From: Pisolithus tinctorius
Lineage: Eukaryota; Basidiomycota; Agaricomycetes; Boletales; Pisolithaceae
Length of the DNA: 64,000 bases
Direction: 5' to 3'
Assembly: GCA_024663395.1 (NCBI GenBank)
Contig: JANFAH010000006.1
Location: 1,674,001-1,738,000 of the forward strand
Position 1 is the stretch's first letter; each line of letters opens with the position of its first letter. The notes under the pieces are model-generated. The model searched no databases, had not been told where the DNA came from, and saw only the letters and a list, made by a program, of their open reading frames with translations. Made by a program: the position numbers and the translations under genes. Positions 16,380-37,500 of this stretch are shown here, piece after piece.

Positions 16380-17560
16380 GTATCCCCCTCTTAGGAACCG
16401 AACCCTTGAGGTTCCATAGGGAAATATGTTCAGAGGGTTATGCAGTGAGGTCGCATGACTCAGAGTGAGTCCGAGTGCACACACAGTGCCAAGGGAGAGC
16501 CCGAGGGCTGGGAAACAGGACAGCGATGACCAGAGGTCCAGTAGTTCGGACCAGAATGGCATAAGCTGGGTTTGGGGTCAAGGGTCAAGTCTGAGGAGTG
16601 TTCCAGGAACCTGAGACCAGAGAAGCAACAACAAGGAGGGTTGGAGACCGGTCTAGGAGGCTGCCAGATGGTTCCACAGGCCAGGACAGGGCAAAGCCGA
16701 GTCTGGGAGTGACTAGACCAGCTGGACAGGAGTTTCCAGAGACAGTGAAAGCTGAGGCTGATGTCTCAGAGGGCCAGAGTTGCACTTCGGAGCTGGGTTA
16801 AGGCAAACTGAAGGCTGGGAATGACCAGGTAAGGCCTAGGGGTGTGCTTCAGGGCCAGGTCAGGGAAAGCTGGAGACTGAAGATGTGCAGGGGACCAGTA
16901 ATGTCCAACTAATGTACCAGGAGTGTGCCACTAGGGCCAGAGGTGTGCCTCAAAGCCAGTTCAGGGCAACATGGAGGCCGAGAGGGTCCAGAGAGGTCCA
17001 GAGATGATCAAAAGATGGTCCAGGGGTGTACCAGTGTGCTGCTGAGTGACAGCAGAACGACACAAAGGCTAGGTGGGTGCCAGGAAGGCTGGAAAACTGG
17101 TCTAGGAATGCACCAGTTGGACTGGGACTGCACTGCAGGGATACAGAGGGTCACAAGAAGTGCCAAGAAGGCCAGGTTAGGTCCAAGGTCTGCTCCAGGG
17201 GGTCACGGGGTCTGAAAGTGTGTATCTACAGAAAAAGAAAACAGATAACAGAAAACCAAGAAAACATATAACAAGGAAACAGGAAACCGAAGCCAGAGAC
17301 AGGGGTCAAAGCCGAAGGCTGAGACCAAGGGTGGCTTAGGCCAGGAGTGGCCAAAGCCAGAGACCAAGACCAGGAGTGGCTGAAGCCTGTTGTGCTAAAG
17401 TGAGTGGTCTGGTGAAAGCAGCCAGACTGAAGACCGGTCAAGGGAACAGAAGGCCTGGAAGGCTGGGAACTGGTCTGAGGGTCAGAGAGGGCTTGAACAG
17501 ACAGGTGGGGACCAGTCTGGAGCCAGAGAAGACCAGAGGCCATCAGGAGACCAGTCTGTA
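16380..17560 (-). mobile_element. Gypsy A internal remnant (3' part)
   Basis: Sequence between the 3' LTR of Gypsy A and the left end of element T. It is G/A-rich on the plus strand with endlessly varied GACCAGAG/CCGGAG-like words. Open frames in it are translations of this word pattern and show no domain. It should correspond to the 3' end of pol plus downstream region, but nothing is recognisable. Confidence 0.6.
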
Positions 17561-17650
17561 TGGAAAGCCAGACGGTCACGCTCAGGTACATAGTACGAGA
17601 TGTGCCGTACACCTACTGTATTTGGTAGTCGGCCACCTTGGGACCCGGGA
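17561..17650 (+). repeat. Element T left terminal inverted repeat
   Basis: The outer 25 bases match the inverse of 34570-34594 at 23 positions, both mismatches being C/T or A/G. After an unmatched stretch of about 35 bases, a second block at about 17622-17650 matches the inverse of about 34501-34530 (TTGGTA, CCTTGGGACCC). The two-block design resembles a transposase-binding subterminal site; that role is inferred. Confidence 0.7.
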
Positions 17651-17743
17651 CAGCCCCAGAAAAATACACGCGGGTGTTTATAGGTATTTATGCAGACTCT
17701 GCCAAGGTTGAGTCCAAGTAATGACATTCTAGTTACTGTAGTA

Positions 17744-18870
17744 CTACATATGTATCAAGTACCACAGGTACTCACCTTCTACTAATACCATGCCTTGCTG
17801 TGAGAGTGTCAGTGCAAAAGTGTGCTCGGAATCACTGCTATTCAGGGCATCGATGATCATATCAATAGCAGAATGTGTATATCCGTGCACTGCAAGGTAT
17901 CGGGCGGCATGGGCACCGAGCGTGTGGATGCGACAGTGTGTCTGTGCGGGTGGAATGGAGTAGAAATACTGAGTTTGTGCAATGCCACGCAGAGTCCGTG
18001 TGTGAGAATAGATGATTGGGGAGTGCGTGTCTTGATCCCAGCCCACAATCTGCTGAGTCATTGTCGAGCTGGCTATTTAAAGTGTTAATAACAACGTAGG
18101 TAGCTGGAGTAATGTCATACATACCAGGCACAGAGGCAGGCAACGGTGTTGCGCTCAATTGTGATGCTTGCACAGCAGGCCTTGATGTCACAGTACGTGG
18201 TGCTGTCGAGCTGGCTATTTAAAGTGTTAATAACAATGTAGGTAGCTGGAGTAATGTCATACGTACCAGACACAGAGGCAGGCAACAGTGTTGCACTCAG
18301 TTGTGATGCTTGCACAGCAGGCCTCGACGTCATAGTACATGGCTCAGGCTTCAGTGGGCCTGGCGGCTGCCTTGGCGCTGGTGGGTGGCTTGGATTGGGC
18401 TGTGCACTGGGACTATCATGAAGCTGGATGCTCGCCAATCTGTCCATGAGACTCCCAACGCTCGTAGTATTACTAGAGCAGCCTGTGAGCAATGATTAGT
18501 CGATTCATGATAGTAGAACAGTTCTAGACAAATGTTGCTTGCCAGGTAGTGACGGCAGAGGGCTGCAACTCGCACTTGTAGCTAACATTGCTGGCATGCG
18601 ATCATCGATACCTTTGACTATCAAATAAGCCAAAGCTTCCCAGAATGTGCATGACTCTCTCCATTTGGGATAAGCAAACGATTGTTCTGAGGTCGTCACA
18701 CTATCTCTAGGATGCTAGAACTTGAGACAACCACTACACAAACATAAGTCATGCCAATAACCTTGTGCGATGAATACCAGCGGGTGCACCCACAACTACG
18801 GCATAAAATGAACCATCGGGAAGTAGGTTTCATACAGCAGTCAAGTTGCTGAATGCTTCAAGCAATTGTG
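17744..18870 (-). pseudogene. Viroplasmin / RNase H1 N-terminal-like gene of element T (degraded)
   Basis: On the minus strand near 18,820-18,780 the frame reads FYAVVVGAPAGIHRTR. After a probable intron, SFAYPKWRESCTFWEALAYL follows. This order (F/Y-Y-x-V-V-x-G-x-x-x-G-I/V, then an aromatic and E-A-L-x-Y-L) is that of the viroplasmin or RNase H1 N-terminal domain, which binds RNA-DNA hybrids or dsRNA and is frequent in fungal mobile-element proteins. Downstream exons encode GSLMDRLASIQLHD and a Pro-rich stretch, then AARYLAVHGYTHSAIDMI. A 142-bp tandem duplication interrupts it. The start and several splice sites are not resolved, so it may be broken. The family call rests on pattern alone. 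Confidence 0.4.
18063..18346. repeat. 142-bp tandem duplication inside element T
   Basis: The segment from GTCGAGCTGGCTATTTAAAG (18063) recurs at 18205 with a period of 142 bp. About ten point differences are visible, nearly all transitions. It duplicates part of the viroplasmin-like gene, including a putative exon edge. Confidence 0.85.
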
Positions 18871-19937
18871 TAGGGCTTGGGTTTGACTGTGTCGCGGTTA
18901 CGGTGTCTAACACATGCTGCAATGTTGATTGGACATGCTCGGCCTCGTTCGTTGAGAAACACTGTACAGCTATTGGTAGGGGGGGTGCAGATCGCCCACA
19001 TGGAATGTAGGGGCTAGAAGTTTAATAAGTGTAGAGTAGCATGTATATATATCTTCATGTGACGCACCAACTTCGGTGTATGCCTGGGTTTCTACCACCA
19101 ACCACAACCCAGCAGGGTTCCATAAAGTGAGGGCTCGGGATAGGATATGGGAACCAATGTCATTGAAATCTACTAGTTTATAGCCTACACGATCCAGTCG
19201 TTACATGCAATGGAAAAGGAAAAGGCACTACCTAGTCATTGTCACCTCGAGTCTCCAAAGTGGCACTGGGCACCTTCTCTCGAGAACCAGTGGTGTCGAT
19301 CCTGAACGGCTGCAACTGAAACCCACGCCACTGGCAAAACGAGTTACACATGTGTTCTGTCTCAAAACATTCCACTCCAATCTCCAAGTTTCCCTCGCCA
19401 AATAAGTCTCTACCCTTTCCCACAGAGCTAGGCAACAGTTAGACACATTGAGGTAACAATACAGATGTGCAACGCACGGATGTGTTAAGATCTGAGGGTC
19501 AGTGAGCAGTGTTTGACTCCCTGTGTAATAGAATTAATATCGAAGCCATGCCGCATGTCACAAATGAACGCATACCTTGATAGTCAGCTATGTAAACAAG
19601 CCCCTTTGTCTTGATGTATTGCACGTGTTGAGTAAAGCAGAGAAACTCCACGATATCATACCCTTCCTCATCCAGATCGAGAAGTGGAATGCAATCGCAA
19701 TTATGAACAAATTTTGTGAAGTCACCGTCGCATTCAATTTTCTCCTCCAAAAGGTAAGCACCGGTCATTCGGGTCGAGCTTCTTGATAAGCTTGCCGAAA
19801 CGCTTATGGACTCCAGAGCCTGGGTATATGCAAGGGCAAGTCCAGCATCCACAAAACGGAGGCGAGGGATCAGAAATGGTGGTGGAGTTGGGGAAGCTGC
19901 AATAGCATGGTCAATGAATTTGTAGGTCATCTTCATG

Positions 19938-20651
19938 TGTCAAGTCCGGGCCTACTCCGACCAACTCCGACGCTTAATAAGGTCTAGAGGAGGGTCCGGA
20001 AGCAAGTCCAACACAGAAGAACAGAACTCCGACTAGCAGAGTGTCGGCAGGAACGAAGTCCGCTGAGACAAAGGCGGAGCGGAGTGAGGGCGTCGGGTTT
20101 AGCTCGTGTGCTACCCCCTTGCACGATCTCAGCCCTCGTATTTCAGAGGGAGAGTACAGACGGAGAGTCGGAGATAACTCCGACAGACAGAAGACGGAAT
20201 CAGAGGGAGTAGGAACTAAGTTGATATTCGTACTGAGGAACAGCGGAGTACAGTACATGTCTTTATACTGCTACGGAGGTACAGTAACCGGAATCGGAAC
20301 TGACATACGGAGACTCATAAGTTTTCAAGTAAAATTTCCTGGACGACGAATGAAGGGTAGACGGAGGACATACGAACAGGTAACACAGAACATCCAGAAA
20401 AGGAAGCAGTCCAGGCGCTGGACCATGCGGTGAGCGCGCTGCGGAGTACCTGACTGCGAAGGTAGTCACATGACACCTCAGAGAACGGACCACTCGGTCC
20501 GGTAGGAGGGCAACACAAGTCCGACAGCAGTCGGAGTGGAGATGGTTCGTAACCAACAGAAGTTGGGCGGAGTTGGTGCGGAGTGAGTGAATGACCGGCG
20601 GAGTGGAGCGCGGAGTGAGTAAGGGCTTAGTGTGAATGCACGGTTATGACA
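19938..20651 (-). repeat. Gypsy B 3' LTR (left)
   Basis: 714 bp, TGTCAAGTCC...GGTTATGACA. Differs from the other LTR at nine positions that I can find, all transitions and eight at CpG dinucleotides. Contains more than a dozen CGGAG words. Confidence 0.95.
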
Positions 20652-20654
20652 GTG

Positions 20655-20664
20655 CCCCCCCCTT
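20655..20664 (-). promoter_or_regulatory. Gypsy B polypurine tract
   Basis: AAGGGGGGGG on the element's sense (minus) strand, four bases before the 3' LTR: the expected plus-strand DNA priming site. Confidence 0.75.
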
Positions 20665-20846
20665 AGGGCCTGAACCCCTGAAGGCCGCATGTACGGAACG
20701 AGATCAACACGAGTTGATCATTTGAAATTATTTTGATGCCTCGAGGATAATGGGTTTAGCCGCGGCGGAGCTCCGTCGGAGTTCAAAGTACCGCTTAAAA
20801 ACACGTGTTAGGGTACCGAACCCTCGTACCTTCCTCCCTCATCACC

Positions 20847-22061
20847 ATGTCCTCTCAGCGCGAGAACACAACCCCCCAGCCAACCCCAGGCCACTCCCGC
20901 AACTACTCCCAAGTTGCGGACGACGTGCTGGTCGTCCTTACCGACGACTCGACCGACACCGAGCGCGAGAAGAACGCGGAGAAAGCACGTCGGCGAGCGG
21001 AGGCGGAGCAGAAAGAGAAAGAGCGCGAGGCGGAGCGCAAGGCCAAATGGGAGCAGGCCAGATGACGAAAGGCGGAGGAAGCACGACTGGAGGCGGAGCG
21101 GAGACAGAAAGAAGAGGAGGAAGCGCAGAGAAAGAAGGCGGCGGAGGAAGAGGCCGAAAGGCAAAGGCAGAGAGCCTCTCAGGAGAGGGCCCAGGCCAGG
21201 CGGGATGAGGCCGCGCAAAGGTGAGTGACAGGATCCTACGAGCCAGGCGGAGCTGACTTGTATTTTTTTTATTTCAGGTTAAGTGGCGCGGTCTACGACG
21301 TCAACACCGCCCAGAGGGTCCCTGGGACCTCTGTGGTGGTCACCGCGACCAGGCGGCCCCCCTGCACTCGCTGCATAGCGAGTCTGACGGCAGGTCAGTG
21401 CGAGCCAGGGCAAGGTAAGACCAGGGCTTGTGTGCCCTGCCACAACAAGAAAAAGACCTGCAGCTGGACGCGGGAAGAGGTGGCGGCGGGACCCTCGCGG
21501 AAGAGGGCAGGGACAGGAAGCTCCCGAGGGGAGAAAAAGAAGAAGCCGCGAGGGAAGGGGAAGGCAAGAGCGACGGAGACGGAGGAGGCTGACGACGAGT
21601 GGGAGGCAGGCGGAGAAGACGACGAGCCAGCGACCCCGCTCGAGGGTCCCTCGGGTGCGGGAGTCCACACGTGGTGGGCGGAGTGGGAGCGCGAGCGACA
21701 GCTGCAAGCCATGGAGAGGCAGGCCGAAGCGCACGAGACCGCTGCGCTGGCCTTCGAGAGGATGGCAGAGGCAGCGGAGCGGATGGCGGAGGCTGCAGAG
21801 CGGACCGCCGACGAGTGGGCGCTGTACCGCGCCTGGGCAGAGTGGGCGGAGATGAGGAGAAGGGAGGATGCGCGTGAGGCCAGAGTGGCCGAGTTCGAAC
21901 GTGCAGGAGGAGGATGGAAGAGGCCACAGTCGGAGGCGGCGGAGGATCAGCGAGAGGAAGCGGACGAAGGTGCGGAGGGGGATAACGAGGAAGAAGTCAA
22001 AGGAGAGCAGGAAGGCGGTGAAGAACAGGAGGGTGGCGGAGAACAAGCGATGGAAGAGTAA
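20847..22061 (+). CDS. Antisense gene of Gypsy B: coiled-coil protein with zinc-cluster-like Cys motif
   Basis: Runs opposite to gag-pol between the pol end and the 3' LTR. Exon 1 from ATG 20847 encodes MSSQRENTTPQPTPGHSRNY, then an Arg/Glu/Lys-rich coiled coil. A TGA at 21063-21065 (likely from CGA) interrupts this copy. After it the frame continues to 21220. An intron with GTGAGT donor and pyrimidine-rich TTTCAG acceptor (21221-21277) joins exon 2, which has RRPPCTRC and then ACVPCHNKKKTC. The Cys spacing is C-x2-C-x8-C-x9-C-x2-C-x6-C, like the fungal Zn2Cys6 cluster but with one longer loop. An acidic Ala/Glu-rich coiled coil (MAEAAERMAEAAERTADEW) and a Glu/Gly-rich tail end at 22061. DNA or RNA binding is inferred from the Cys motif and basic residues. 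Strand, splice signals and domain pattern support a real gene rather than a shadow. Confidence 0.72.
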
Positions 22062-22083
22062 AGTAGTTTTGTTTTCTTTCTTT

Positions 22084-22085
<2 letters not shown>

Positions 22086-22114
<29 letters not shown>
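22086..22114. repeat. T29 homopolymer (A29 on the retrotransposon sense strand)
   Basis: 29 uninterrupted T residues just after the antisense gene's stop codon and 160 bp beyond the end of pol. Read in the direction of the retrotransposon it is an A tract following pol. It may be an imprint of a poly(A) tail or simple slippage. Confidence 0.8.
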
Positions 22115-22275
22115 GTCTTTAGTTTGTATATTTCTGTACTACTACGAAATAGACTTGTGACTTTTGTTCGCGACTCTGAGAAGTGAAATAGACAAGCGGA
22201 GAAAATGCTAAAGTACTTAAGGTAGTTCAGTGAGTGGCGGAGTTGGCCAGCGGAGGAAGGTTATGTGGGCGGAGT

Positions 22276-25200
22276 TTATGGCGGAGGTTGGTACGGGCCA
22301 GGTTTGTGTGGATAGCGTTCATGGAAAGCGGACACTATGTCGGAAGCGTGATCCAGCTCAGTTGCAAGCAACCAAGAGGTTTCTTCGTCGGTGTTCTCGT
22401 AGCCAGCCCAGTGGACTAGGTACAAGAGTTGACAATGGCGGCAACGGCGGTCCACCTTAGAGTCGAGTATCTCTGATACCTCGTACTCAAGGTCACCATC
22501 AACATCCACTGGCGGAGGCGGAGGTTGTTGTCGGTTTGGGAAAGGGTTAGCCGCTGCGGCTTCCAGTTGTGAGACATGGAAGACCGGATGTACCAAGCGC
22601 ATAGAGTCAGGGAGCTTAAGGGTGACAGAATGCGTACCTGGCCTGGCCAAGATGGTGAACGGACCTAAGTACTTTTCGGAGAGTTTTTCCGAAGGACGAG
22701 TTGAGCGGAAGTACTTGGCTTTGACGTAGGCCTGTTCTCCGACCTTGAACTCAGGTGGAGGTATGCGTTTAGCATCTGCTGGACCCTGGTAGCGCTGTTG
22801 AGCGGCGGACATTTCGGAGCGGAGGAAGTCATGAAGGGCGGAGAGCTCAACGACATAGTCATGAGCCCTTGGGGAAGTGAAGTCTTGGTCAGGGACCACA
22901 GACAGGTTTGGATGGTATCCCTTGTTAGCGAAGAAGGGAGAAACTCCAGTCGTCGCACTTGGTGCGTTGTTGAAGGCGAACTCTGCTAGAGGTAACAGCT
23001 CAGCCCAATTGTCTTGTTGGTAGTTACAGTAGACACAAAGGTACTGCTCGAGAGTCTGGTTTGTTCGCTCGGTCTGGCCATCGCCTTCTGGGTGGTAACC
23101 CGAAGTGAAGTGAAGACGCATATTAAGGGCCTTTCCTAGAGAGCGGAAGAAGTGCGAGACAAACTCAGGACCTCTGTCGGAGGTGACATTAGCTGGTACT
23201 CCGTGCTTGGAGAAGACATGGGTTAGGAAAAGCTTAGCGAGTTCGGCGGAGGTGACGGAGTCGTGGGTGGGGATGAACACCGCTTGCTTTGAGAGGCGGT
23301 CCACTACCACGAGTATGGCGGAGTAGCCATCGGAGTTGGGGAGGTGTTCGATGAAGTCCATGGAGATGGAGTTCCAAGGTCTCTCTGGGACGGGGAGTTG
23401 CTTCAGTAGACCATAAGGGCGGTGACGCGGAGTTTTGCTCCGTCCACAGGCGGTGCAAGACCTGACGTATTCTTTCACGTCGGAGCGGAGGTTGGGCCAC
23501 ACGTAGTCCCTGCGGACGAGTTCTAGGGTGCGGTTTTGCCCGAAATGGCCTGCCAGAGGATGATCATGCTTGAACCGAAGCACTCGAAGGCGGAGGTCAT
23601 CAATGTCAGGGACAAAGATACGACCGTCAAGGCGGAGTAGACCGTCGGAGTCCAGGGACCACCGAGGCTTAGTCGGAGTTGGAAGATGGCTGGCGGAGAC
23701 AGGATCAGATGGTAGGGCGGAGATGATGTCGGAGTGCAAGCACTCAACATTGAAGACCATGGCGGCGCGGAGCACAGGTGCCATGAGGGTGGTGGTTCAG
23801 AGGGATGACGCGAGTTGCTCCTGTGTAAACATAGGGCGGAGATTGTGAGGATTTACCTGCGCGTAGTCCCTATCCCCCCCTTTTGGGTAGACGTCCCAAC
23901 GTCGCGTAAGTGCGTCGGGTTTGGCTCCTAAGCGGCCAGGTCGGAAGCGGATGGAAAGATTAAACTGGGAAAGGTACTCCGACCAGCGGGCCTGTCGACG
24001 GGTGAGAACCTTAGAGGTGGAAAAGTACTCAAGGTTTTTGTGATCCGTCACCACGTCGACAGGTAAGGCGGAGCCTTCTAAGTAATGCCGCCAATGGCGG
24101 AAGGCCTCGAAGATGGCCAACAGCTCCTTGTCGTGGGTATCATAATTGAGTTCTGGCGCGGTCATGGTGCGGGAGTAGAAAGCGACCGGGCGGAGTTCAC
24201 CGTCGGAGCAGGTGATCGACAAAATGCCAGCAATGGCATAGTCGGAGGCGTCGGTTTCCACTGTAAGCAGAGCGTCAGGGACCCAGTGAGTGAGAATAGG
24301 GGCGGAGCTGAAGGCATCCTTCAGGCGGAGGAAGGCGGAGCGGCACTCCTCGGAAAAGTTCCAAGGAGCACCCTTTCGCGTGAGGCGAGTGAGCGGAACA
24401 ACGATGTCGGAGTAGTTATTAATGAATCGTCTATAGAAATTTGCAAAACCAAGGAAAGACTGGATGTCTCGCACCTTCCGCGGCTCAGGCCAGTCGTGGA
24501 CTGCCTGAACCTTCTCAGCAGACATGGTGAGACCGGAGGGAGAAAGAACATAACCGAGGTACTCGACGGAGTCGGAGTGGAACTCGCACTTCTCTGGCTT
24601 GGCATAAAGACCATGCTTTCGAAGGCGGTGGAGTACCTCTTTTACGTGTTCGCGATGCGACTCCATGTCCTGCGAATAGATTAAGATGTCATCGAGGTAT
24701 ACCACGACGCAGACATTGAGCATGTCTGCAAAGATGCTATTAACAAACCACTGGAAGGCCGCAGGCGCATTAGTCAGACCGAACGGCATTACCCGCCACT
24801 CGTAGGAACCATATCGAGTGCGGAAAGCTGTTTTCCATTCATCTCCGTCTGCTATGCGGACCAGATGATAGGCATGGCGGAGGTCGATCTTGGTATAGAC
24901 TTTAGCGCGGCTTGGGGAGTCGAGTAGGTCGGAGATGAGCAGCAGCGGATAGCGATCTTTTTTCGTGATTTTGTTGAGTCCTCGATAGTCTACACAGAGG
25001 CGGAGTGAACCGTCCTTCTTTTTCACAAAGAGGACAGGGGCACCGTGAGCGGAGGTGGACTGCTTGATGAAACCGTAGCCAAGATGCTCGTCAATGAAGG
25101 TGCGGAGAGCTTCAAGCTCTGGCGGAGAAAGAGAGTAGATTGTACCAATGGGCGGAGAAGCTCCTTCCTCGAGGTCGATCTTGAGATCGAACGAGCGGTG

Positions 25201-26001
25201 TGGCGGAAGTTCAGTGGCCTTGTCTTTACTAAAGACGTCGGCAAACTCGTGATACTCAGAAGGAACCGAGGAGAGGTCAGGAGGCGGAGATGAAGCGGAG
25301 GACGCACGAAGCTTCACATCATCAGCGGAGAGCTGTAAGCGGAACTGTCTAGAGCCAGGGAGAGCACAGGCTCTGACATACGCAGCAGCATTGATGAGTG
25401 AGACGAGCGGAGCGGAGTGCGGCGAGTCGGTCGGAGATGCAGTCGGAACTGCAAACGGAGCGGAGGGTGTCGGATCCGGAGCGGAGGTCGCAGCGGAAGG
25501 TGACGAAGGCGCCTGGGGCGTCGGCATTCCCTGTAGCGGTGGTTTGAACGATATACTGCCCAGTACCCAGTCAATCGACGGATTGAAGCGGGTGAGCCAG
25601 TTGTGTCCTAATACCAGCGAACAAGAAGAATCCAACGGAGTAACATAAAACGAAGCGGAATTGACATCGCCGGAAGGGAAGCGGAGGGAAAGATCTACCT
25701 CTTGGGAAATGACAGCATTTGTACTACCATCAAACAAGCGGAGCGGAATTGGCGGAGAAACGGAGGAGACAGGAATGTCATATTTTTTGATTATAGACGG
25801 ATCTACGAAGCAATGAGAAGAACCAGAATCGATCAACGCAGAAACAGTATCAACAGAATAATCCAGAAGAGTTACAGACGGAAGTAAAGAATTGGGACTA
25901 GAAAGAGCGGACGCGTTGAGTCGGATGTCCGGTTGCGCACAGTTGGGTTCAACGCTTCCTCCAGGCTGTGCGAGCTCCCTGGAGGAGCGGACTAATTTTT
26001 T
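22276..26001 (-). pseudogene. pol: Gypsy B Pol: protease, RT, RNase H, integrase, chromodomain (one in-frame TGA)
   Basis: Frame is open from the gag/pol slip site (26001) to 22276 except for one TGA at 23799-23797. The residue at that place in relatives would be Arg, so CGA to TGA is likely. Domains in order: aspartic protease (ALIDSGSSHCFVDPS), RT (LCVDYRGLNKITKKDRYPLL, then VVYLDDILIYS), RNase H (VETDASDYAIAGIL, then THDKELLAI), HHCC integrase (H...H, CTACGRSK), core with SMDFIEHLP, TSDRGPEFVSHFF and a later Glu, and a C-terminal chromodomain (YEVSEILDSKVDRR, YLVHWAGYENTDEETSW). The chromodomain makes it a chromovirus-type gypsy; such domains can steer integration to heterochromatin. The sense strand is unusually rich in CTCCG words. 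Confidence 0.95.
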
Positions 26002-27278
26002 GACTCTGCCTTCTCCGCAGGCGGAGTAGGCGGAGTTTCAGCCATAGCTGCACGGGCTTTGGCTGCGCGAGAGGTGGACTTGGGACAGTCATTGGCGGAA
26101 TGGCCAGCCTCACCACAGAAGAGGCAGAGGTTATTCTTCATCCTGCGCTGGCGTTCAGCGGAGGTGAGTTTGCCATCCTTGCCCAGAAGATGGGCAATAT
26201 TGGACTTGGACACGTCAGACTTGGGCGGATCTTTCTGTTTGCCCTTGCCCTTGGCGTCGGACTTTGGAGCGGAGGACGAGGAGGACGACGATTTAGTTTT
26301 GTTGTCGGAGTTGGAAGACTGCGACTTGTCGGAGGCGGACTTGGTGGTACGTGAGATCTCTGCTTTACGCTCCCAGTAGCGCGCATCGATGGTCTGAGCG
26401 AGTTCGCGGAGTTGTGTGAGGGTGGAAGGTTTTCCGACGCGAGCAATCTCGTCCTTGATGCGGTCTGGAAGTCCGCTATAGAAGCGGTGGCGGAGCACAC
26501 CGACACCATAGTCCTTGACCTGTGAAGCCCAGCGATTGAACTCCACGACGTATTTGGTAATTCGAGACCCATCCTTCATGGTGAGGTTCTCGAGTTGTTG
26601 GACGGCATCCGCTATGGCATCATGCGGACCGAAGTTAGTTGTGAGCTCTTGTAAGAACTCATGGTAGTCGTCCATCCAGAGTGGGCGGTCATAGTTGTCG
26701 GGGTTTAGCAAATCTGGCTCGAACCAAGCCAGGGCCATACCCTTAAGATAAGATTGAGCGAAGGTAACCTTTGCTCTGTCGGAGCGGAATGCGCGAGGGC
26801 GGTCTTGGAAGTTCAGCTCGCATTGAACGAGGAACTCGCGGAGCTTCTTGGGGTCGGAGCCGTCGAAGGTGTCAGGCTCGCGGACTTTGGTTTTCGGAGC
26901 GGAGTCCCCAGTGCGCGAGCTAGACCGCGCAAGTGCATGGACAGCTCTAGCAAGAGCTACGAGGGGATCCTCTGGCGGCTCAGCCGGGTCTTCGGGAATA
27001 TCCCCGTCACCGCTGCCCCTGCCGTCGGGATCACCGTCAGGATAGTCAGGGTCGGGATCAGGTCCATCATCTCGGTTACGAGGAGACGGAGTATGGAAAG
27101 CTGATGGGTGGGGGTCGGAGCGACCAGCTTGCGAAGCGCTTTCGCCTTCAGCGCGAGAGCGGTGTCGAGCGGAGAATGATTGGAACTGTTCGACGACGGA
27201 AGGGAGTCGACGCGGATTAGCTAGCGCAACAGCGAGGTTCTCAGCGACCTCTCTCTGGGATTGAGCTCGAGTTCTCAT
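25992..27278 (-). CDS. gag: Gypsy B Gag
   Basis: 428-residue Gag-like protein starting MRTRAQSQREVAENLAVALA, with a Pro/Asp-rich segment (DDGPDPDPDYPDGDPDG), then the conserved retrotransposon gag fold (FDGSDPKKLREFL, FAQSYLKGMALAWFEPDLL, GLPDRIKDEIA). A Ser/Lys-rich linker leads to one CCHC zinc knuckle (CLFCGEAGHSANDC). It forms the particle and packages the RNA. The TAG stop (25994-25992) directly follows a shift-prone heptamer. Confidence 0.94.
   Translation of the reverse strand: MRTRAQSQREVAENLAVALANPRRLPSVVEQFQSFSARHRSRAEGESASQAGRSDPHPSAFHTPSPRNRDDGPDPDPDYPDGDPDGRGSGDGDIPEDPAEPPEDPLVALARAVHALARSSSRTGDSAPKTKVREPDTFDGSDPKKLREFLVQCELNFQDRPRAFRSDRAKVTFAQSYLKGMALAWFEPDLLNPDNYDRPLWMDDYHEFLQELTTNFGPHDAIADAVQQLENLTMKDGSRITKYVVEFNRWASQVKDYGVGVLRHRFYSGLPDRIKDEIARVGKPSTLTQLRELAQTIDARYWERKAEISRTTKSASDKSQSSNSDNKTKSSSSSSSAPKSDAKGKGKQKDPPKSDVSKSNIAHLLGKDGKLTSAERQRRMKNNLCLFCGEAGHSANDCPKSTSRAAKARAAMAETPPTPPAEKAESKN
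25995..26001 (-). promoter_or_regulatory. Candidate -1 ribosomal frameshift site between gag and pol
   Basis: Minus-strand A AAA AAT, in gag frame TCA AAA AAT TAG, so the heptamer sits exactly on the A-AAA-AAU slip pattern just before the gag stop. Pol lies in the -1 frame, and that frame is open from here into the protease. I did not identify the downstream stimulatory structure. Confidence 0.7.
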
Positions 27279-27339
27279 AACGGTGTAAGTTTTTTGGAAG
27301 ACAGAAAAGGAGATCGTACAAGTGCGAGTACGAATATAC

Positions 27340-28053
27340 TGTCAAGTCCGGGCCTACTCCGACCAACTCCGACGCTTAATAAGGTCTAGAGGAGGGTCCG
27401 GAAGCAAGTCCAACACAGAAGAACAGAACTCCGACTAGCGGAGTGTCGGCAGGAACGAAGTCCGCTGAGACAAAGGCGGAGCGGAGTGAGGGCGTCGGGT
27501 TTAGCTCGTGCGCTACCCCCTTGCACGATCTCAGCCCTCGTATTTCAGAGGGAGAGTACAGACGGAGAGTCGGAGATAACTCCGACAGACAGAAGACGGA
27601 ATCAGAGGGAGTAGGAACTAAGTTGATATTCGTACTGAGGAACAGCGGAGTACAGTACATGTCTTTATACTGCTACGGAGGTACAGTAACCGGAATCGGA
27701 ACTGACATACGGAGACTCATAAGTTTTCAAGTAAAATTTCCTGGACGATGAATGAAGGGTAGACGGAGGACATACAAACAGGTAACACAGAACATCCAGA
27801 AAAGGAAGCAGTCCAGGCGCTGGACCATGCGGTGAGCGCGCTGCGGAGTACCTGATTGCGAAGGTAGTCACATGACACCTCAGAGAACGGACCGCTCGGT
27901 CCGGTAGGAGGGCAACACAAGTCCGACAGCAGTCGGAGCGGAGATGGTTCGTAACCAACAGAAGTTGGGCGGAGTTGGTGTGGAGTGAGTGAATGACCGG
28001 CGGAGTGGAGCGCGGAGTGAGTAAGGGCTTAGTGTGAACGCACGGTTATGACA
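27340..28053 (-). repeat. Gypsy B 5' LTR (right)
   Basis: 714-bp partner of 19938-20651, followed by the target duplication TCATG at 28054-28058. Drives gag-pol on the minus strand. Confidence 0.95.
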
Positions 28054-30359
28054 TCATGAGTGATTGGGACCAGTAGAGAACATTGGCTTCCCAAAAAAGC
28101 TTCTCAAGTTCCTGCTGAAGGACGTAGCGGCCAATTTGGATTGTGGACTTGTCCTTCAGGTTGCCGTCACCAGTACTGTGGTAAGGTCGCTTCATGACGA
28201 CATCGTGACGAGGGAGTGATCCAAGGCCAGTGGGTGCTGGTGGGGTAAGAATGAGCTGCGCTGCATAAGCCATCTTAAACGCACCAACTCCCAGGAGAGA
28301 TTCCGTCGAAGTATTGAATATCAGTTGGCCAGGATGCGATGTGCATGGGTTGATTTGGAATGAATGCTTGTTGGAATTCTCTAAGATATCCTCCAAAGGC
28401 AGTGTAGGTATTGGATAAAAAACAACGGATTCGAGTTTCATTTTCAGGACTGTGACCAATCGTTAATTACATGCAGAAGTGGCAGGCCACAAAGACAGCA
28501 CATACCTTTCTTGACATCCACGTCTGCAGCGCCACCACATGCAAGCACTTCAATCACTTTGTTGCGATCGGGGGAGGGTACCGGGGGGTGTACAACCTTC
28601 TTCCTAGGAGGGGATATGGTAATAACACTTGACACACTAATGGACGCTCGGTAGTTGTGCTTGCTTGGGGTGCATTGGTTGGTCGTTGTCGGGGAAGGTG
28701 ATGGCTGATGACGAATGAGACAAAGTACTTCAAAAAATGGTGATCACATACATTATCGCATTTTTCACTGTCGACAAACAACTGGTTACCACTAGACGCC
28801 TGTGACTGAGACTGTGCAGGAAAGATTAGTCGGCCACTAGGTATCATCAAGGTAAAGATGACAGCGACTTACTTTGGCCTCAGCAATGCGGACATCATGA
28901 GATATGGGCCGTTCCGCTACACTGCTGAATGAATCGACAAGGCGAGCCCGAGTGCTGGGCAAATTGACGACTGGTTGATGAGGCTTGGTGGCATAGTCCA
29001 TTGACACAGTCTCAATGAAGTTTTCGTAATCCTTCCATTGCACGGCAGGAACGACAACATAAAGAGAAAACTGCTTTGACTTGAAGACCAATGACTTCGC
29101 ATTTTTACGAGTGCCTGGCTGAACGCATTCTCCATAGAAATATGGACGGTTGCGATCTGGATGGTCCAGCAAGTTCACCCATGACGTGTCGCGGACAATG
29201 AATTCATCGTATTTCCATCGGAACCCCGGACAGAATGCATGAATCTTGGGAACAATCGTGGTAAGTGCGATGGACACCAGCTCAGGAGCAGTGATGTGGG
29301 CATCGATATCCTTTTTTCCCTCACAAATACTCTGATGAATGTCAATGCATTAGTTCTTGCATTGTACAAAGAAGCGATAACTTACACTGAAGGGGGTGCC
29401 ACGGAGGCGGCTTCTCCTAGAACCACCCTCATATAAGGCTGAGATATCTAGCGTAATTGTCTCTGCAGGTGGGGTACAGTATGCAAGGCGTGCCCATCAT
29501 TCACGCTCGGATCCATAGAGTGCATGGTTGGGAGTATAGCCACATGGTACCGCTGCTACATTCCGAGGAGGTTCGGAGTGCACAGGGGGCCTGGAGTCCT
29601 GAAAATTCCTCCAGGATGATGGAACGTGAACATCAGGTCCTGTTTGCTTCTGGGCTGCATTTCTCGCTGGAGGGAGAGCAATCACTTGCGGTGGGTTAAT
29701 GGTAGCTTTGATCCATTAGTTCGTGATGACCCTTAGTGGATCAGAAATTACACTCACTGCCACGTTGTGCAGTGTTCACAGCCTGCTGTATTACTTTTGG
29801 ATCAGGGAGATGGGCAGTAACGACAGGTCGGGGGTTAGAAGCCACATGGCCTTGAATGCCATCCGGTGCCATAGGCGTATCTGGAAGTTCTTATCAGCAT
29901 CAGGAAGTATAAATCAGGTATGGCCATACCTATGGCTTGCACGGACGCTCGCACAGTCATGGTTGGCTTCTTGCTGTACCAATCATAGCACGACTTACAT
30001 ACATAACGGCCAGACTTGGATGGGTTGGCAGTAGAAATGTAGAAGTAAGGAGCCCCTTTGGGAATGAATGCGCTGCATGCTGATCGTTGACAGATCATAT
30101 CGTTTTCAGCGACATCATCTGTAAACTGAGACACAAGCTCGATATTTAGTCTTGTCATAGTATCGAGAATCAAGTAGCGTTTGAGGATGGCGGGGAATTG
30201 GTGTAGTACATTGATCCAAGGTCTGCTTAAATAGTGGCCAGATTGTGGAAAGTGAAGCGGTGAGTCTACAGCTGGCAGGTCGCACCAAAAAACGCCCCAT
30301 CTCAGATCCCAGTCTATCTGTGGTGGATAGGTGCAAGTCCGCAGGCAAAACTGAATCAT

Positions 30360-30910
30360 TGGTAGTCGGAAATCGTGTTTAGATGACGTGACTGAAACGA
30401 GGTATCAGAGAATAACCATGGGTTGTCAGGATGGTACACTACCGAGTGTCTGATGAAGGCCCGGATCACCCAAGAAAGAAAACTCGAGGTCAGTGCTGCA
30501 AAAACGAATCAACGGCAGCCAGAAATCGTGTTCAAAAGACATGAATGAGGCGATGTATCAGGGGCAGTCAAAGGGGTGGACAAGATGTTAAGTTCCGAGT
30601 ATCTGAAGAAGGCATTGATGAGGATACTTCAGGAAAGCGAATGAACATCAGTATCACCTTCAGTTACTCATCGCAAGGAGGAGCGGAAAGGTTCGGAAAA
30701 TGTCGTATCAAATTCTAGTTATGGGAAACCACAGCCGAGGCATGAGGCTTCAATTCAATTAGCGACCTCAAGGCTTCGAAGCTTAGGTGCAGAGGCAGAC
30801 CTTGGGCATTTAACAACATACAAGAGTACGCTAGGTCATTGTGCACCTCCCTGTGTATTTTGCCCTTCAGCCTGAAGGCCTCAAGTCGAGTTGATGCCTA
30901 ATCAACATAC
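30360..30910. other. Shared 5' region between the alpha-kinase and integrase genes of element T
   Basis: About 550 bp between the first recognisable kinase exon (minus strand) and the foldback insertion in the 5' part of the integrase gene (plus strand). It probably contains a two-way promoter and the first integrase exon(s). In the last 30 bases a frame reading PNQH joins the integrase frame KPLRMSVHNV across the insertion. No other motif seen. Confidence 0.4.
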
Positions 30911-32482
30911 AGTGAGGGACAAAAGTGTTGCAATGTTTGTGAGGTGTGAATTGTTGCTGATGTAGCTTGGGCTATTCTGCACAGATAATCATGATACCTA
31001 TACCATCGGAAAGGGGTGACTCTATGCTTTCCAGAGAACTAAGGTTCAGTCAAAACAAAGCAATACATGCTGAGATACACCCTATTCTTTCCAAAAAGTG
31101 CATTGCAACGCTTTTGTCCCTGACTGGTGAAATCATGAAATGTGACCTTTTGATGGGATTGAGGGCATGGAGGATGGGAAAAAATGCTTACATAATAAAC
31201 CACATGATCATCCAGATGATTTGTCAGCATGTAAACAATGACAAACATTGGACTTGTACCATTAATCCTCCCTCTTTTACCACAACTCATGAAATCATCT
31301 CTCTAGCTCACATGGTCATTTTCTCAAGGAATTCTTATCAAATACTGGTGGCCACCACAGTGCCATCAGTATAACATGCTCTCAGGACCATCAGTCCCTT
31401 AAAAAACCTGCTGTCAGTCATTTCCTGGACCATTTCTCCCCCCATGCCTGATGTGTTCTGGGACTAATCAGTACTTGGAAGGCTGAAAATGTTATGGAGG
31501 TCAATCTGGCACTTCAGAACATGATGTACAAACCAGTCCCCTCTCAACCAATGCATTTCTGGCACAGGAACACTGATATGGAAGTTGGGGTGGGACAAAA
31601 CCTCCTTGTGCTCTGAGCACCATAAGAGGGTTCACTAGATCTTGCTCTGATCTGAACTGTAGATGACTGGGGAAGGATTATTTGGTCATATGTGACCAAA
31701 GGCAATATTCAGGGCCAGATGGAAGCACAGGATTCTGCTCCATGGCAGTTCAGTGGCATATTCTTCTGATGACAGCCAGGGGTAAAGAGGATTTTGTCTT
31801 GCCCTAACTTCCATACCACTGTCCCTGTGCCAGAAATGCATTGGTTGAGAGGGGACTGGTTTGTACATCATGTTCTGAAGTGCCAGATTGACCTCCATAA
31901 CATTTTCAGCCTTCCAAGTACTGATTAGTCCCAGAACACATCAGGCATGGGGGGAGAAATGGTCCAGGAAATGACTGACAGCAGGTTTTTTAAGGGACTG
32001 ATGGTCCTGAGAGCATGTTATACTGATGGCACTGTGGTGGCCACCAGTATTTGATAAGAATTCCTTGAGAAAATGACCATGTGAGCTAGAGAGATGATTT
32101 CATGAGTTGTGGTAAAAGAGGGAGGATTAATGGTACAAGTCCAATGTTTGTCATTGTTTACATGCTGACAAATCATCTGGATGATCATGTGGTTTATTAT
32201 GTAAGCATTTTTTCCCATCCTCCATGCCCTCAATCCCATCAAAAGGTCACATTTCATGATTTCACCAGTCAGGGACAAAAGCGTTGCAATGCACTTTTTG
32301 GAAAGAATAGGGTGTATCTCAGCATGTATTGCTTTGTTTTGACTGAACCTTAGTGCTCTGGAAAGCTTAGAGTCACCCCCTTCCGATGGTATAGGTATCA
32401 TGATTATCTGTGCAGAATAGCCCAAGCTACATCAGCAACAATTCACACCTCACAAACATTGCAACGCTTTTGTCCCTCACTG
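30911..32482. mobile_element. Foldback element 1 (mariner-like TIRs)
   Basis: Nearly perfect palindrome of 1,572 bp with arms of about 780 bp around 31,697. Outer ends are CAGTGAGGGACAAAAG, a Tc1/mariner-type terminus, with TA on both sides (30909-30910, 32483-32484). Each arm contains at its outer end a 216-bp unit with the same terminus inverted at its inner edge (31101-31126 and its mirror near 32266), so the element looks like two small MITEs in opposite orientation joined by a spacer. No transposase; the mirrored open frames are not genes. It interrupts the integrase gene of element T. Confidence 0.88.
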
Positions 32483-32484
32483 TA

Positions 32485-34397
32485 AACCGTTGCGTATGTC
32501 AGTTCACAATGTATTACACCACCGCCCTGATTTTGGAACAGCACCGATTGAGCAGATTACCCCCCATGTCATGCAGCTGTGGAAGGCCTGCCGCACAGAC
32601 AAGGAGATGCTGGAAGAAGTTCTCAAGCACATCAACACTGAGGAATATGGAATCGGGTACGCAGCTACGTTTTCCTCTGTTATCCATGTCCCATTAACCC
32701 TGATCTGAAATTACCAGCCTGACGAAATTCAAGGCCATTCGCAAAAGCTTAGGGTTGCACCGTACTCGCCAGCAGGGCCACACAACTGAATCGATCCGTA
32801 GTGTTATGGTCCATCTGTGCGAGATGTACCCCAAGGCTGGAGTGTGCAAAACAATAAGTTTATTGTTCCATGAGATGGACATGTCTGTATCTCGGTAAGT
32901 TCTGATCGACCATCCCATACATCAACTTACTCCGCTGCAGCAGCATTGTCCATGAATACTTCACCACCTACGAGCCCAATCTTGTTCGACAGCGGAAGGC
33001 TCAGCATCTTCAACAGCGGCGATTCTGGGCTGCTGGTGTGAATGATATTTGGGCGATTGATCAGCACGATAAATGGCTTTGGTTTGGCTTAGCTCTCCAC
33101 ACAGGTATAGAGCCATTTTCAGGAAGAATAATGTGGATGCACATCTGGCATTCAAATCGTAACCCTCAACTAATCCTAAGCTATTATCTCGATGTTGTTG
33201 ATGAACTTGGTTGTAAGTAATTAACCCTAGGCATGCTGTGGGGACGCTCATACCTGCCGCTTCCTTAACAGACATTCCACTTGTTACACAGAGCGATCCA
33301 GGTACAGAAAACTTTGGGATCGCCAATGCCCAAACTATGCTGCACCAGTGGCATGACCGTAGTTTGCTTGGTACATTGCAACACAGATGGATGCGAACAA
33401 AGAAGAATGTCATGCCCGAAATCACTTGGTCACAACTCTGGCGCCGCTTCACACCTGGCTTCGAGTCTCTTCTGGATTGGGGTGTGGAACAAGGCTGGTA
33501 CGATTGTGACAACACATTACAGCAGTAATTTGATCACTTTCTGAGGAGTACCATACTGACTTGGGATTTTTGAATCTGTCAGGCTCATCTTTTATTGGGT
33601 GTTCATCCCCTGGCTTCAGTGCAAACTCGATGCGTATAGGAACTGCGTGAATTACACTGCAAAGCGTCGTGATCGAAACAAAGTGGGTAATTTACATTAT
33701 GATGCACTTTTCAATCAACCACTAAACAATCCAAGGTATTGCCGCATGGTGTCCCTGAACTTATCCACAGTGCCGCTGAAGATTATGGCGCGCTGGACTT
33801 CAAGGTATGGAATACAGATTTAGATACATGTGATGTGTCCTGACTTATGGATTACAGGTGATCGTTGACCGTGCTGCAATAGAGCATGTACGCAAGGTGT
33901 ATATCAATTCCGCTCATCCCATGTTTGATCTGGTATCCCCTGCATTTGGCGCCTTCCTCGAAAAGTGTTACACTATGTTGCAGCGTCCTCCCGTTGGTTG
34001 TGGCAACGCATGGACAGTATATCATGAAATGTTGGCCCTCATTCAGCGACAAGAAGAGGCACAGGCTCTCCATGAATCAATAATGGACGTTGAAATGCCC
34101 GCAGAGCACCTCCCCCTTATTGAAGGCTTGGAAGATCTCCCTTTCAATGAGACAGATGGAAACTACTACATGGGTGGTGTAGGTGGTGGCCTTGGACTAC
34201 GTAAGTTGTCAATGAAATTTTTGTTAACTAGTGGCTAAGTACGAGCAGAGGAAGATCACATCCGGGTATTGGATAACCTTGATGACGAACCCAATGTTGA
34301 AGGTGGTGAGACAAGTGATGCTGGAGCTGGCGTTGTTATTTCAGCCTTTTCTGATGATGAAAGTGATGACGACGACCCATTCCTAGACAAGTGGTAG
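32485..34397 (+). CDS. Integrase-core domain protein of element T (5' end displaced by foldback element)
   Basis: Protein of the integrase-core family common in Agaricomycete genomes. Exon sequence in order: KPLRMSVHNVLHHRPDFGTA, ITPHVMQLWKACRT, LTKFKAIRKSLGLHRTRQQG (helix-turn-helix-like N-terminal part), then FWAAGVNDIWAIDQHDKW with the first candidate catalytic Asp. GIEPFSGRIMWMHIWHSNRN and TQSDPGTENFGIANAQ (second Asp) follow, and RTKKNVMPEITW may hold the Glu, 41 residues on. After that come YTAKRRDRNKV, LPHGVPELI and an acidic tail DESDDDDPFLDKW ending at 34397. About six short introns fit. I saw no stop in the exons, so apart from the foldback insertion the gene looks intact. Role as T's transposase is inferred from its position between the inverted repeats. 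Confidence 0.75.
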
Positions 34398-34499
34398 ATA
34401 CTATGTAGTACATCAGGCTCGTATCTACATTTTCGTGGTTGTTTTTCATGATTCATTATAATATATACAAGGCCGTTAAATTGCATCTCGGGTAGGTTT

Positions 34500-34594
34500 G
34501 CGGTGTCTTGGGTCCCAAGGGGGTCGATTACCAAGTTTAGTATTTGCGGGCGCCTCGCCCACCACCTTTCTGAGCATGACCGTCCGGCTTTCCA
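34500..34594 (-). repeat. Element T right terminal inverted repeat
   Basis: Inverse partner of the left end: the outer block is 34570-34594 and the inner block about 34501-34530. The flanking TA at 34595-34596 and the return to Gypsy A-type sequence mark the boundary. Confidence 0.7.
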
Positions 34595-34596
34595 TA

Positions 34597-37500
34597 AGTC
34601 TGGTGGTCAGGACAGGCCAGAAAGGCTAGTCGGAGACTGGTTTGGACCTGGGAAGGGCTGGAAGGCCAAAAATGTCAAAGGGAGACCGGTCTGGGGTTGG
34701 GCAGGGCTGGAGTGGCTGGCTGGAGGCTGGTCTGAAGGTGTTGGAGGAGTTTGGGGTAGTCAGAGATGACCTGAGGTGCTATCCAGCTAGCAGGCTGATA
34801 ACAGGAGGCCAAAACAGTGTAGGCCAGTGGGCTAACACTGAGACCGGGGTAACCAGGGGTAGCAAGGTGTAACCCTGAGGCTGGAAGTGGCAAGCCCAAG
34901 TGCCGAGCACCTTGGAACAGGCCAGACGAGCCTCTGGAGGACAGTGAGGGACCAGGGGCTGTCTACAACAGCTAGAGTCTGGTCTGGACAAGGACCAGAG
35001 GACCTGACACAGCCAGGCATGAACCAGGGATCAGCAGGCCATGAGACCAGTTCAATGAAGGCCTAGGGATGTCAGCAGGAGGGGAGTCCAGGTGTTGAGT
35101 CCAGTTTAGGGGTGTCTGGAGTTGGTTGGAAGTGGGTTTTCTGGTGGTGAGAAGCCCAAAGGCCAAAAGGGCCACTGGAGGACTGGTTCAGGGGGTCTGG
35201 AGACCGGGTGAGGCCTAGGGGTTGTCCAGCTGAAAGGCTGACAACAGGAGGCCGAGACCGGTGAGACCAGTGAACACACAATCACTGAGGCTGAGAACCA
35301 TTGAGACAGTGAGACCAGAGTACCAGCACAAATGTCAGGGGCTGGGAGCAACCCAGGGCAGGTGGTTCGGGAGTGCTTCAGTATGCAAGGACTGGGCCAA
35401 GGAACTGGGAACTGGTGTGCAGGGACCGAGTGGGGTTGTGCTGAGGGCACTGGAGAGGTAGCAGACAGGAGTTTGGAAGAGAGTAGGTCACTAGCAAGGT
35501 CCCTTATCCCCCTCTTAGGGTAGACTTCCCAAGTCTACAGGGGTATGAGGTATGGGCCAGGATCATGGAGTGGAGTACTGGATGGGTAGTAGGAGTACTA
35601 CCACCAGAGTTGTAAGTCCGAGTACTGAGAATGCTGAGACCGGCTTAACAGGTGTTAAGACCAGTTTTGGGAAGCTTTTTCAAGGCTGGAAAAGCTTTAA
35701 AACCGGAGATACAAGGCCACCAGAGCAGGCCGGACTGGTACAGGGATAGTAAGGAGTGTCGGAGTCAAAGGTGAGGGTATGGAGGCTGGAACCAGAGCCC
35801 AAGGGGAAACCAGAAGGCCGGTGAAGACCAGCAGGCCAAAAGACAACTGGTAAGACCAGAGTCAGGAGAGTGGGTAGGACCAGAGTTCCAGAGTCAATGG
35901 TGGGGTGACAGTGGCAATGGTTTAGGGGAAGGTGAGGGGTTAGCTGGTACCCAAAGGGGCCTTGTGAACATACAAGTTCTGGGGTGAGTGGGTGAGCTGG
36001 GAAACAGACCGGCAGAGTCAGGGGTTTGTCAGATGGGCCAAAGCCCAGGGTGTCTTGCAAGCAAATTCATGCTCCAAGGCAGGGTTGATGTCAGGGGGGT
36101 TAGCAAACTTTTAGTACTAGGTGGGGATAGGTGACTGCACTGCACTCGGCCACCAACGGGTGCCTATTGAGTGGGCTAGTCAGTTCCCTACAACCAAGAT
36201 ACTTCAGTTCCTAACGGGTTGACAAGGCCAATTAAAACAGGGGTTGGAGACCAAGAGAGAACCAAGGACCAGAAAGAGGTGCTAGGTCAAGACCATAGCA
36301 TTGGGGTAGAGGACAGGGGTAGTTCTTGGAGGAGGGAGAGGCCTGAAGGCCAAATGAGTGACAGGGGGAGTAGCATAGAGCTACCCAAGGGGCATCAGAG
36401 GCTGAGGAAGGCCGGAGATGGGAGACCAGCCAAAGAAACAAGTCTGGAGTGAGTAAGACTGGTCAGGGACCATGAGGAAGTCCAGAGATGAGCACCAGAA
36501 AGAGAAAGGAGTCTGGAGTCAGCAAGACTGGTTAAGGGCTATAAGGAAGTCCGGAGGTGACAGGCCAGACAAAGGCTGACAAGGCCTAGTGAAGGAGGGA
36601 AGACCAGAACTCAGGAGTCCGGTCATAAAGGAGTCTGGAGGCAGAAAAAGCGGACACAAATAGGGGGACCGGAGTTAGCAAGTCTGGTCCAGGGCTGAAC
36701 AGCCAGGTGAGTCCAAGGGAAGTTGGGGGTCCAGCAGGGTTCAGCAGGACAAGCCAGGGCCACAAGGGGACTGGAGCTGGCAAGTCTGGGCTGTAAAGCC
36801 TGGCGAAGCCATGGGTCTGGCAGGACAAGCCAGGAGGACTGCTAAGGGGACTGGAGTGTAGCACTAATTGATTTGTCTCTACCAAGACCACCAGTTTTGG
36901 CTTCTGGTGTACCAGAGTACCAACTTGTTGACCCAGTTAGGATCCTGGGGTAGACTCTAATTGTTTTGTCTCAACTGAGACCACTGGTTTTGGCTTCTGG
37001 AGTACAAAGCTACCAACTTGTTAACCCAGTTAGGATCCTGGGGTGGACAGAGGACAGGGAAAGGCCTGGAAATGAGGTCAGGGACCAGGATAGGGGCCGG
37101 AGGACCAGCAGACCGGTCCTAGACTGAAGACCAGGGCCAGGAGCAAGTCCAAAGGACTAGCATGCCCAGGGGGTGCCTCCAAGTGAAAAGAGAGGCCAGA
37201 AGAGAGGTCAGGGACTGGGCTGGCAGACCGGTCCTAGACTGAAATGGAGGTGTCATGCACTAGCCAAGACCACAAGAGCTGAGGCCTGGTGCAAGTCCAA
37301 AGGACAAGCACCACTCCAAGGCTGAGGTGACTAGTGCAGGACCAGGACAATGGACAGGGGACCCAGGAGGGGTCTGAGAGGAATAAGAGGGTCTGGGGAA
37401 AGCCAGGACCGGTCCAAGACCTAGTAACAGGTCTAGACAAGTCTGGGTGAGGTGGCTGAGTCAGACTGAGGCCAGAATGGCCAGTAATGAAGGGCAGGAG

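Follow-up and report, generated by a model that had tools for sequence, protein, structure and literature searches.

Co-inherited transposase and alpha-kinase genes in a probable IS3EU-type transposon of Pisolithus tinctorius

Analysis of a 64,000-nucleotide stretch of the Pisolithus tinctorius genome (hereafter the window; positions 1,674,001 to 1,738,000 of contig JANFAH010000006.1, GenBank assembly GCA_024663395.1) revealed an inverted-repeat DNA transposon in which the gene for an integrase-core transposase lies divergently to that for an alpha-kinase. Transposase and kinase have been handed down together in several subfamilies of this element and in many Boletales. The explanation that best covers the data as a whole, and which we hold with considerable confidence, is that the window contains a decayed copy of an IS3EU-type transposon with paired genes, whose kinase would serve the element in trans. 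Coordinates without a contig prefix are window positions; the window corresponds to C6:1674001-1738000 of a 92.5-Mb genome in 221 contigs.

The element and its insertion sites

The transposon spans positions 17559-34596 of the window and comprises, with its flanks, the following features:

17553..17558, no strand: target-site duplication, left copy (AGTCTG), from alignment and flank comparison
17559..17652, plus strand: left terminal inverted repeat, two blocks, starts TATGGAAAGCC, from inverted-repeat search and alignment
17747..18960, minus strand: third gene, several exons, approximate limits, conserved between subfamilies, weak resemblance to the RNase H1 N-terminal/viroplasmin domain
19233..30158, minus strand: alpha-kinase gene, several exons, approximate limits, C-terminal part at 19233-19937 and remainder at 28054-30158, interrupted by a retroelement
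19938..28053, minus strand: nested long terminal repeat (LTR) retroelement in the kinase gene, foreign to the transposon, repeats at 19938-20651 and 27340-28053, TCATG 5-bp duplication
30894..34397, plus strand: integrase-core (rva_4) transposase gene, about eight exons, approximate limits, first exon interrupted by a foldback element
30909..32482, no strand: nested foldback element, foreign to the transposon, two 700-nt arms 98% complementary, ends CAGTGAGG.., TA flanks
34504..34596, minus strand: right terminal inverted repeat, ends GGCTTTCCATA, from inverted-repeat search and alignment
34597..34602, no strand: target-site duplication, right copy (AGTCTG), from alignment and flank comparison

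The two-block ends that had been predicted from the window were both located, each terminal inverted repeat measuring about 94 bp and consisting of an outer block (17559-17606 and 34549-34596, 75% identity) and an inner block (17614-17652 and 34504-34542, 79% identity). The core pattern of the repeat occurs 12 + 8 times in the 92.5-Mb genome, as against 0 for the reversed control, and for the 14-mers TATGGAAAGCCGGA and TATGGAAAGCCAGA the counts are 106 and 67, again as against 0. The window element and four compact subfamily copies end in TATGG..CCATA, and the outer 41 bp of paired termini are 0.90-1.00 identical in all 20 pairs compared.

An uninterrupted copy elsewhere in the genome (L021:507-7848) is 7,342 bp long, which agrees with the net size of about 7.3 kb estimated for the window copy in the original prediction, and full-length copies of 7.3-8.1 kb are known from four subfamilies. 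The window element aligns with L021 in three blocks (96.7-97.0%), the two gaps being due to the nested LTR retroelement (about 8.1 kb) and the nested foldback element (about 1.57 kb). The window copy is decayed, both its kinase and its integrase being interrupted. The foldback element at 30909-32482 carries CAGTGAGGGACAAAAG ends and sits in the first integrase exon.

The target-site duplication had been expected to be TA; this proved incorrect, as TA belongs to the terminal repeat, inside the TATGG..CCATA ends, and the real duplication is the 6-bp AGTCTG. In a first set of insertions for which both ends were available, the six bases beyond TATGG..CCATA are identical on the two sides in 10 of 10 cases, the window included, and the duplicated 6-mers differ among insertions except in one pair of copies with common flanks. 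A second set of 20 terminus pairs yielded 16 exact duplications, two with one mismatch and two without a duplication, bringing the exact cases to 26 of 30 insertions. The sequence outside the window element, labelled Gypsy A in the original prediction, is a repeat with many other copies in the genome. Fusing the window flanks across a single AGTCTG gave a query with 44 matches, 23 of which run unbroken through other copies of this flanking repeat, starting at query base 1-4 and ending at base 233-244, at 92-96%; the filled window site matches the same query as 1-123 and 118-244, with an overlap of six. These 23 unbroken copies are empty sites, and the element has been mobile in the past.

Transposase and kinase genes

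Both genes proposed for the element were confirmed by profile searches. The hand-joined integrase exons of L021 match PF24764 (rva_4) at 47.9 bits (cut-off 26), and the integrase exon of the window is 92% identical to L021. The hand-joined kinase exons of L021 match the alpha-kinase profile PF02816 at 55.7 bits over positions 3-185 of 185 (cut-off 21.3), a single exon of this gene reaching 24 bits, and two kinase pieces in the window are 91% and 86% identical to the L021 kinase.

The kinase displays the features of the alpha-kinase family, namely the PF02816 match, the ATP-site lysine, the glycine loop and the His/Cys zinc site. In the kinase alignment (A1), K539, G508 and H682 are invariant and D696-G699 nearly so, the H-x-C-N-x-x-C end being absent from three of the 23 rows; catalytic and zinc motifs are retained in most relatives, including those 29-46% identical to the reference kinase. 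The kinase model aligns structurally to TRPM7. Judging from such models, the element kinase appears to have its fold and its catalytic and zinc motifs in common with TRPM7/ChaK, myosin heavy chain kinase A and eEF2 kinase, at 15-21% identity in the structural alignments, but it differs from all three in its flanking domains and in being borne by a transposon. In the modelled kinase protein P0131 a middle domain (residues 202-324) appears weakly ubiquitin-like in fold, and the N-terminus contains conserved cysteines.

An integrase-core gene and 6-bp duplications would also be expected if the element were what is left of a larger, self-synthesising transposon of the Polinton/Maverick type. Polintons/Mavericks have an integrase, 6-bp duplications, a protein-primed DNA polymerase and a size of at least 15 kb. 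Full copies of the Pisolithus element, by contrast, measure only 7.3-8.1 kb in four subfamilies and have TA..TA termini, and no DNA polymerase or capsid match was found in the ten L021 reading frames scanned. On these grounds a Polinton/Maverick origin was rejected as highly improbable.

Pairing of the two genes within the genome

Genome searches that took a single exon from each gene as query yielded 26 loci for the integrase and 41 stretches for the kinase. At 26 of the 26 integrase loci the closest kinase lies in divergent orientation, as had been predicted from the window. At 19 of them the gap between the matched exons is 2.57-3.26 kb, and at the remaining seven, apparently nested copies, it is 4.4-51 kb. 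In the comparison of loci with termini, which used 167 of 173 termini, 18 of the 26 pairs are enclosed by exact termini separated by less than 35 kb; flanks were read for 17 of these, giving 13 exact 6-bp duplications, two with one mismatch and two with none. The pair at C2:2127846, the kinase of which is 51 kb distant, and the right end assigned at C18:541624 are doubtful. In four compact copies the divergent gene starts are about 0.5-0.9 kb apart, as estimated from alignment starts.

As a control, we used 53 other rva_4 loci, drawn from the 150 rva_4 candidates scored out of 464, after removal of three element integrases. Of these loci, one has a kinase within 20 kb, and none has a TATGGAAAGCC terminus at a distance of 10 kb or less. 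The control loci mostly score higher in Pfam and did not appear among the results of the element-exon search; they form a second set of rva_4 integrases that is unlinked to element termini and, save for one locus, to a kinase. The two genes are thus neighbours at other loci and the terminal repeats flank them there too, so that neither of the observations that could have overturned the predicted pairing was made.

Eight of the 41 kinase stretches have no element integrase within 60 kb; they lie at six places (C167, C4:3097878, C50, C35, C18:381002 and C2:2062607). A Pfam alpha-kinase search of the genome found eight kinases, four being element kinases and four falling outside the results of the element-exon search, which is biased toward element kinases. 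The latter four (C25:753691, C36:467606, C22:348256 and C11:236993) score higher in Pfam, and no rva_4 integrase was present within 20 kb of them among the matches listed. The suggestion that the pair explains the expansion of alpha-kinases therefore holds in part and for this genome only, in which 41 element-exon stretches stand against eight kinases found by Pfam, four of them non-element.

Co-inheritance in Boletales

Trees were built for 24 integrase-kinase pairs of the genome, in which six subfamilies were named from the kinase alignment. Each of the five multi-copy subfamilies forms one group in the kinase tree. The integrase tree, based on approximately 100 residues and with weak support, recovers three of the five as such groups. 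Kinase distances rise with integrase distances, the correlation being r=0.80 over 23 pairs and r=0.66 (p=0.006) over eight representatives.

Between species, 21 integrase-kinase pairs were found on a common contig. Of 386 integrases found, 120 were listed and 102 of these entered the comparison, along with 89 of the 91 kinases; the integrase also occurs in Agaricales (Mycena, Hypsizygus). Same-contig status was judged from equal-sized contig records and the locus-tag prefix rather than from coordinates, and six pairs are on contigs shorter than 200 kb. Five pairs have consecutive locus tags (two of Chiua virens, and one each of Melanogaster broomeanus, Suillus luteus and S. lakei), and in a Boletus reticuloceps pair the tags are two apart. 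With the own-genome pair P0020/P0180 left out, trees were built for 20 pairs from 14 Boletales assemblies, one of which is another P. tinctorius (Marx 270). The integrase and kinase trees have 12 of 17 splits in common, as compared with at most three in 2000 trials with shuffled labels, and no conflict was found among splits supported at 85 or above. The four S. subluteus pairs are distributed over three clades, in which they group with pairs of other species, and the clades are identical in both trees; hence, the agreement tracks lineages of the element and not species alone. Together with the loci within the genome, these results bear out the idea that the integrase-core and alpha-kinase genes travel together.

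The sequences also carry a clear signature of long-range constraint on both exons. Over all 276 pairwise comparisons, the kinase exon has a mean pN of 0.33 and pS of 0.68 (pN<pS in 275), and the transposase exon a mean pN of 0.17 and pS of 0.72 (pN<pS in 268).

One might ask whether two unrelated, neighbouring gene families were simply spread by segmental duplication, or brought together by an assembly artefact. Copies L022 and L025 do have common flanks, and that pair therefore stems from a larger stretch that was duplicated; against this as the general explanation, 24 further insertions carry an exact 6-bp duplication, each different, empty sites exist, and pairs are present in 14 other assemblies, five of them with consecutive locus tags. 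Chance neighbourhood, segmental duplication and assembly artefact are refuted by these observations, and we give them practically no credence.

Relationship to IS3EU and other known elements

IS3EU elements have been described as possessing TA..TA termini, usually 6-bp duplications, and an rve-type transposase without the HHCC motif (Kojima 2023, PMC10045372); in the available text of that paper the word "kinase" has 0 occurrences. The rust families of IS3EU end in TAYGG..CCRTA and have 6-bp duplications and repeats longer than 30 bp (Kojima 2025, PMC12730594). The Pisolithus element has the 6-bp duplication, TAYGG..CCRTA ends with repeats longer than 30 bp, and an rve-type DDE transposase. 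According to the available text of Kojima 2025, in which "alpha-kinase" appears twice, both times in the Discussion, all TET-positive IS3EU families carry a TET gene between an oppositely oriented transposase and alpha-kinase. All IS3EU features examined except the TET gene being present, the element is filed as a presumptive IS3EU-type family with a known kinase partner, a placement made from its ends, its duplication and its gene content.

It follows that the pairing is not new: the original prediction knew of no described family with an integrase-core/alpha-kinase pair, and Kojima 2025 (PMC12730594) states this pair for TET-carrying IS3EU. The TET-positive elements of rusts and Tuber indicum resemble the Pisolithus element in their opposite transposase and alpha-kinase genes and, in the rust families, in their 6-bp duplications, but they carry TET/JBP between the two genes, and Boletales are not named among their hosts in the available text of that paper. 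Of the 150 TET/JBP candidates scored out of 186 in the genome, none falls within any of the eight compact copies of 7.3-8.1 kb, coordinates being compared by eye; three of these 150 lie inside nested element spans of 26, 35 and 78 kb. TET/JBP dioxygenase matches are very numerous in this genome (186 candidates, 150 scored). What is new here is the TET-free elements of Boletales, the evidence for co-inheritance and the conserved third gene.

A further relative is Styx of Zymoseptoria (PMC10853768), which has an IS3EU-like transposase, a length of about 7.9 kb, several accessory genes and a 6-nt duplication (CATAAG), and is in these respects similar to the Pisolithus element. Its accessory genes, however, encode GATA, CCHC and DUF3577 proteins, and no kinase is reported among its four genes in the available text. 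No link of a kinase to IS3EU was found in the available text of papers on Phlebopus (Boletales), Ganoderma and Colletotrichum (PMC12411881, PMC8955403, PMC11645255), and in the open-licence PubMed Central literature only Kojima 2025 was found relevant to alpha-kinase and transposase, as judged by titles.

Possible role of the kinase

The transposase, as a member of the DDE family, would bind the TATGGAAAGCC repeats, excise the element and join it to the target with a 6-bp stagger, as is inferred from its superfamily, so that movement would be by cut and paste. The divergent genes, with starts about 0.5-0.9 kb apart, may use one promoter region, in which case the kinase would be made when the transposase is made. 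The kinase would act in trans for the element, most probably by phosphorylating the transposase or nuclear proteins of the host (repair, chromatin or silencing factors) and so enabling transposition. An accessory factor of transposition is the likeliest reading of this predicted kinase.

The main rival is that the kinase is functionless cargo, a passenger that an ancestral element picked up on a single occasion and that benefits the host or no one, the transposase alone being sufficient. Stop codons occur in 13 of the 41 genomic kinase stretches, and Styx is reported without a kinase in the part of the paper available (PMC10853768). Furthermore, non-autonomous relatives of 3-5 kb (L022:636-3690, L023:564-3956, L024:675-3740, L025:4971-8027 and L028:525-5438) have both ends and no kinase stretch, yet are flanked by 6-bp duplications; the kinase is therefore dispensable in cis. 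What these relatives retain is approximately 308 bp at one end and at most 250 bp at the other; the DNA in between is unrelated and holds a 1.08-kb inverted repeat (arms 99.9% alike in L022). Having both ends, they are presumably mobilised in trans. Set against the passenger explanation are the divergent kinase at every one of the 26 integrase loci, the similar trees of 20 pairs from 14 assemblies, free of conflict among the well-supported splits, and the motifs that persist even in relatives whose identity to the reference kinase is as low as 29-46%. Such long co-inheritance argues against functionless cargo because neutral cargo would be lost or swapped, and we consider a mere passenger unlikely.

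A narrower form of the accessory role is that the kinase serves as an anti-silencing factor acting on host methylation or chromatin, as Kojima 2025 (PMC12730594) proposes, in the available text, for the TET genes of other elements. The kinase is encoded by the element, changes fast and is co-inherited, like a counter-defence gene, and its tentative ubiquitin-like middle domain and cysteine-containing N-terminus could fit such a function; we regard this as possible, if rather doubtful. Broader still is the proposal that the kinase is a required core component of basidiomycete IS3EU, controlling transposition or disarming the host, and that most alpha-kinase genes of mushrooms are transposon genes. 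This we put forward tentatively, at a little short of an even chance.

Several observations weigh against the reading of the kinase as an accessory factor within a paired IS3EU-type transposon. Subfamilies C and E do not fall on one side of a branch in the integrase tree, the kinase evolves approximately twice as fast as the transposase exon, and pS is near saturation over the 276 comparisons. Among the 26 closest pairs, dN/dS is 0.21-0.81 for the kinase, with one pair at 1.07, and 0.24-2.11 for the short transposase exon, exceeding 1 in eight of the 26; weak constraint among young copies is, however, expected when many copies are dead. The predicted transposase structure is of low confidence near the second and third catalytic residues, Foldseek with this model gave no match at E 0.001, and a sequence search for a solved structure of the transposase found none. 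Two of the 20 terminus pairs are without matching flanks. Finally, since Styx is reported without a kinase, on the available text, not every IS3EU can depend on the kinase.

With these data a brief published remark becomes a tested pattern, in which a transposase and an alpha-kinase of Boletales are inherited as a unit. The pairing makes it possible to test directly the reason for the presence of a protein kinase in a DNA transposon, for which the defined ends, compact copies and non-autonomous partners offer a basis for designing a transposition assay, and the "alpha-kinase expansion" of mushroom genomes may partly or largely reflect transposon copy number.

Third gene and subfamily layout

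The viroplasmin-like gene that had been proposed between the termini is upheld as a conserved gene, lying on the kinase strand in L021 and conserved across four subfamilies. Its domain label rests on a match to PF01693 at 18.2 bits, under the cut-off of 21, in two stretches of which the best covers 2-44 of 44; three shorter single pieces of the gene gave no match to this profile. A viroplasmin-like nature is therefore possible, and if the weak resemblance to the RNase H1 N-terminal domain is real, the third protein would bind nucleic acid. One subfamily (C1:1831181-1839276, C23:348456 and C46:284412) has a different layout, with the third gene at the opposite end, on the transposase strand, and the kinase approximately 0.6 kb from the left end.

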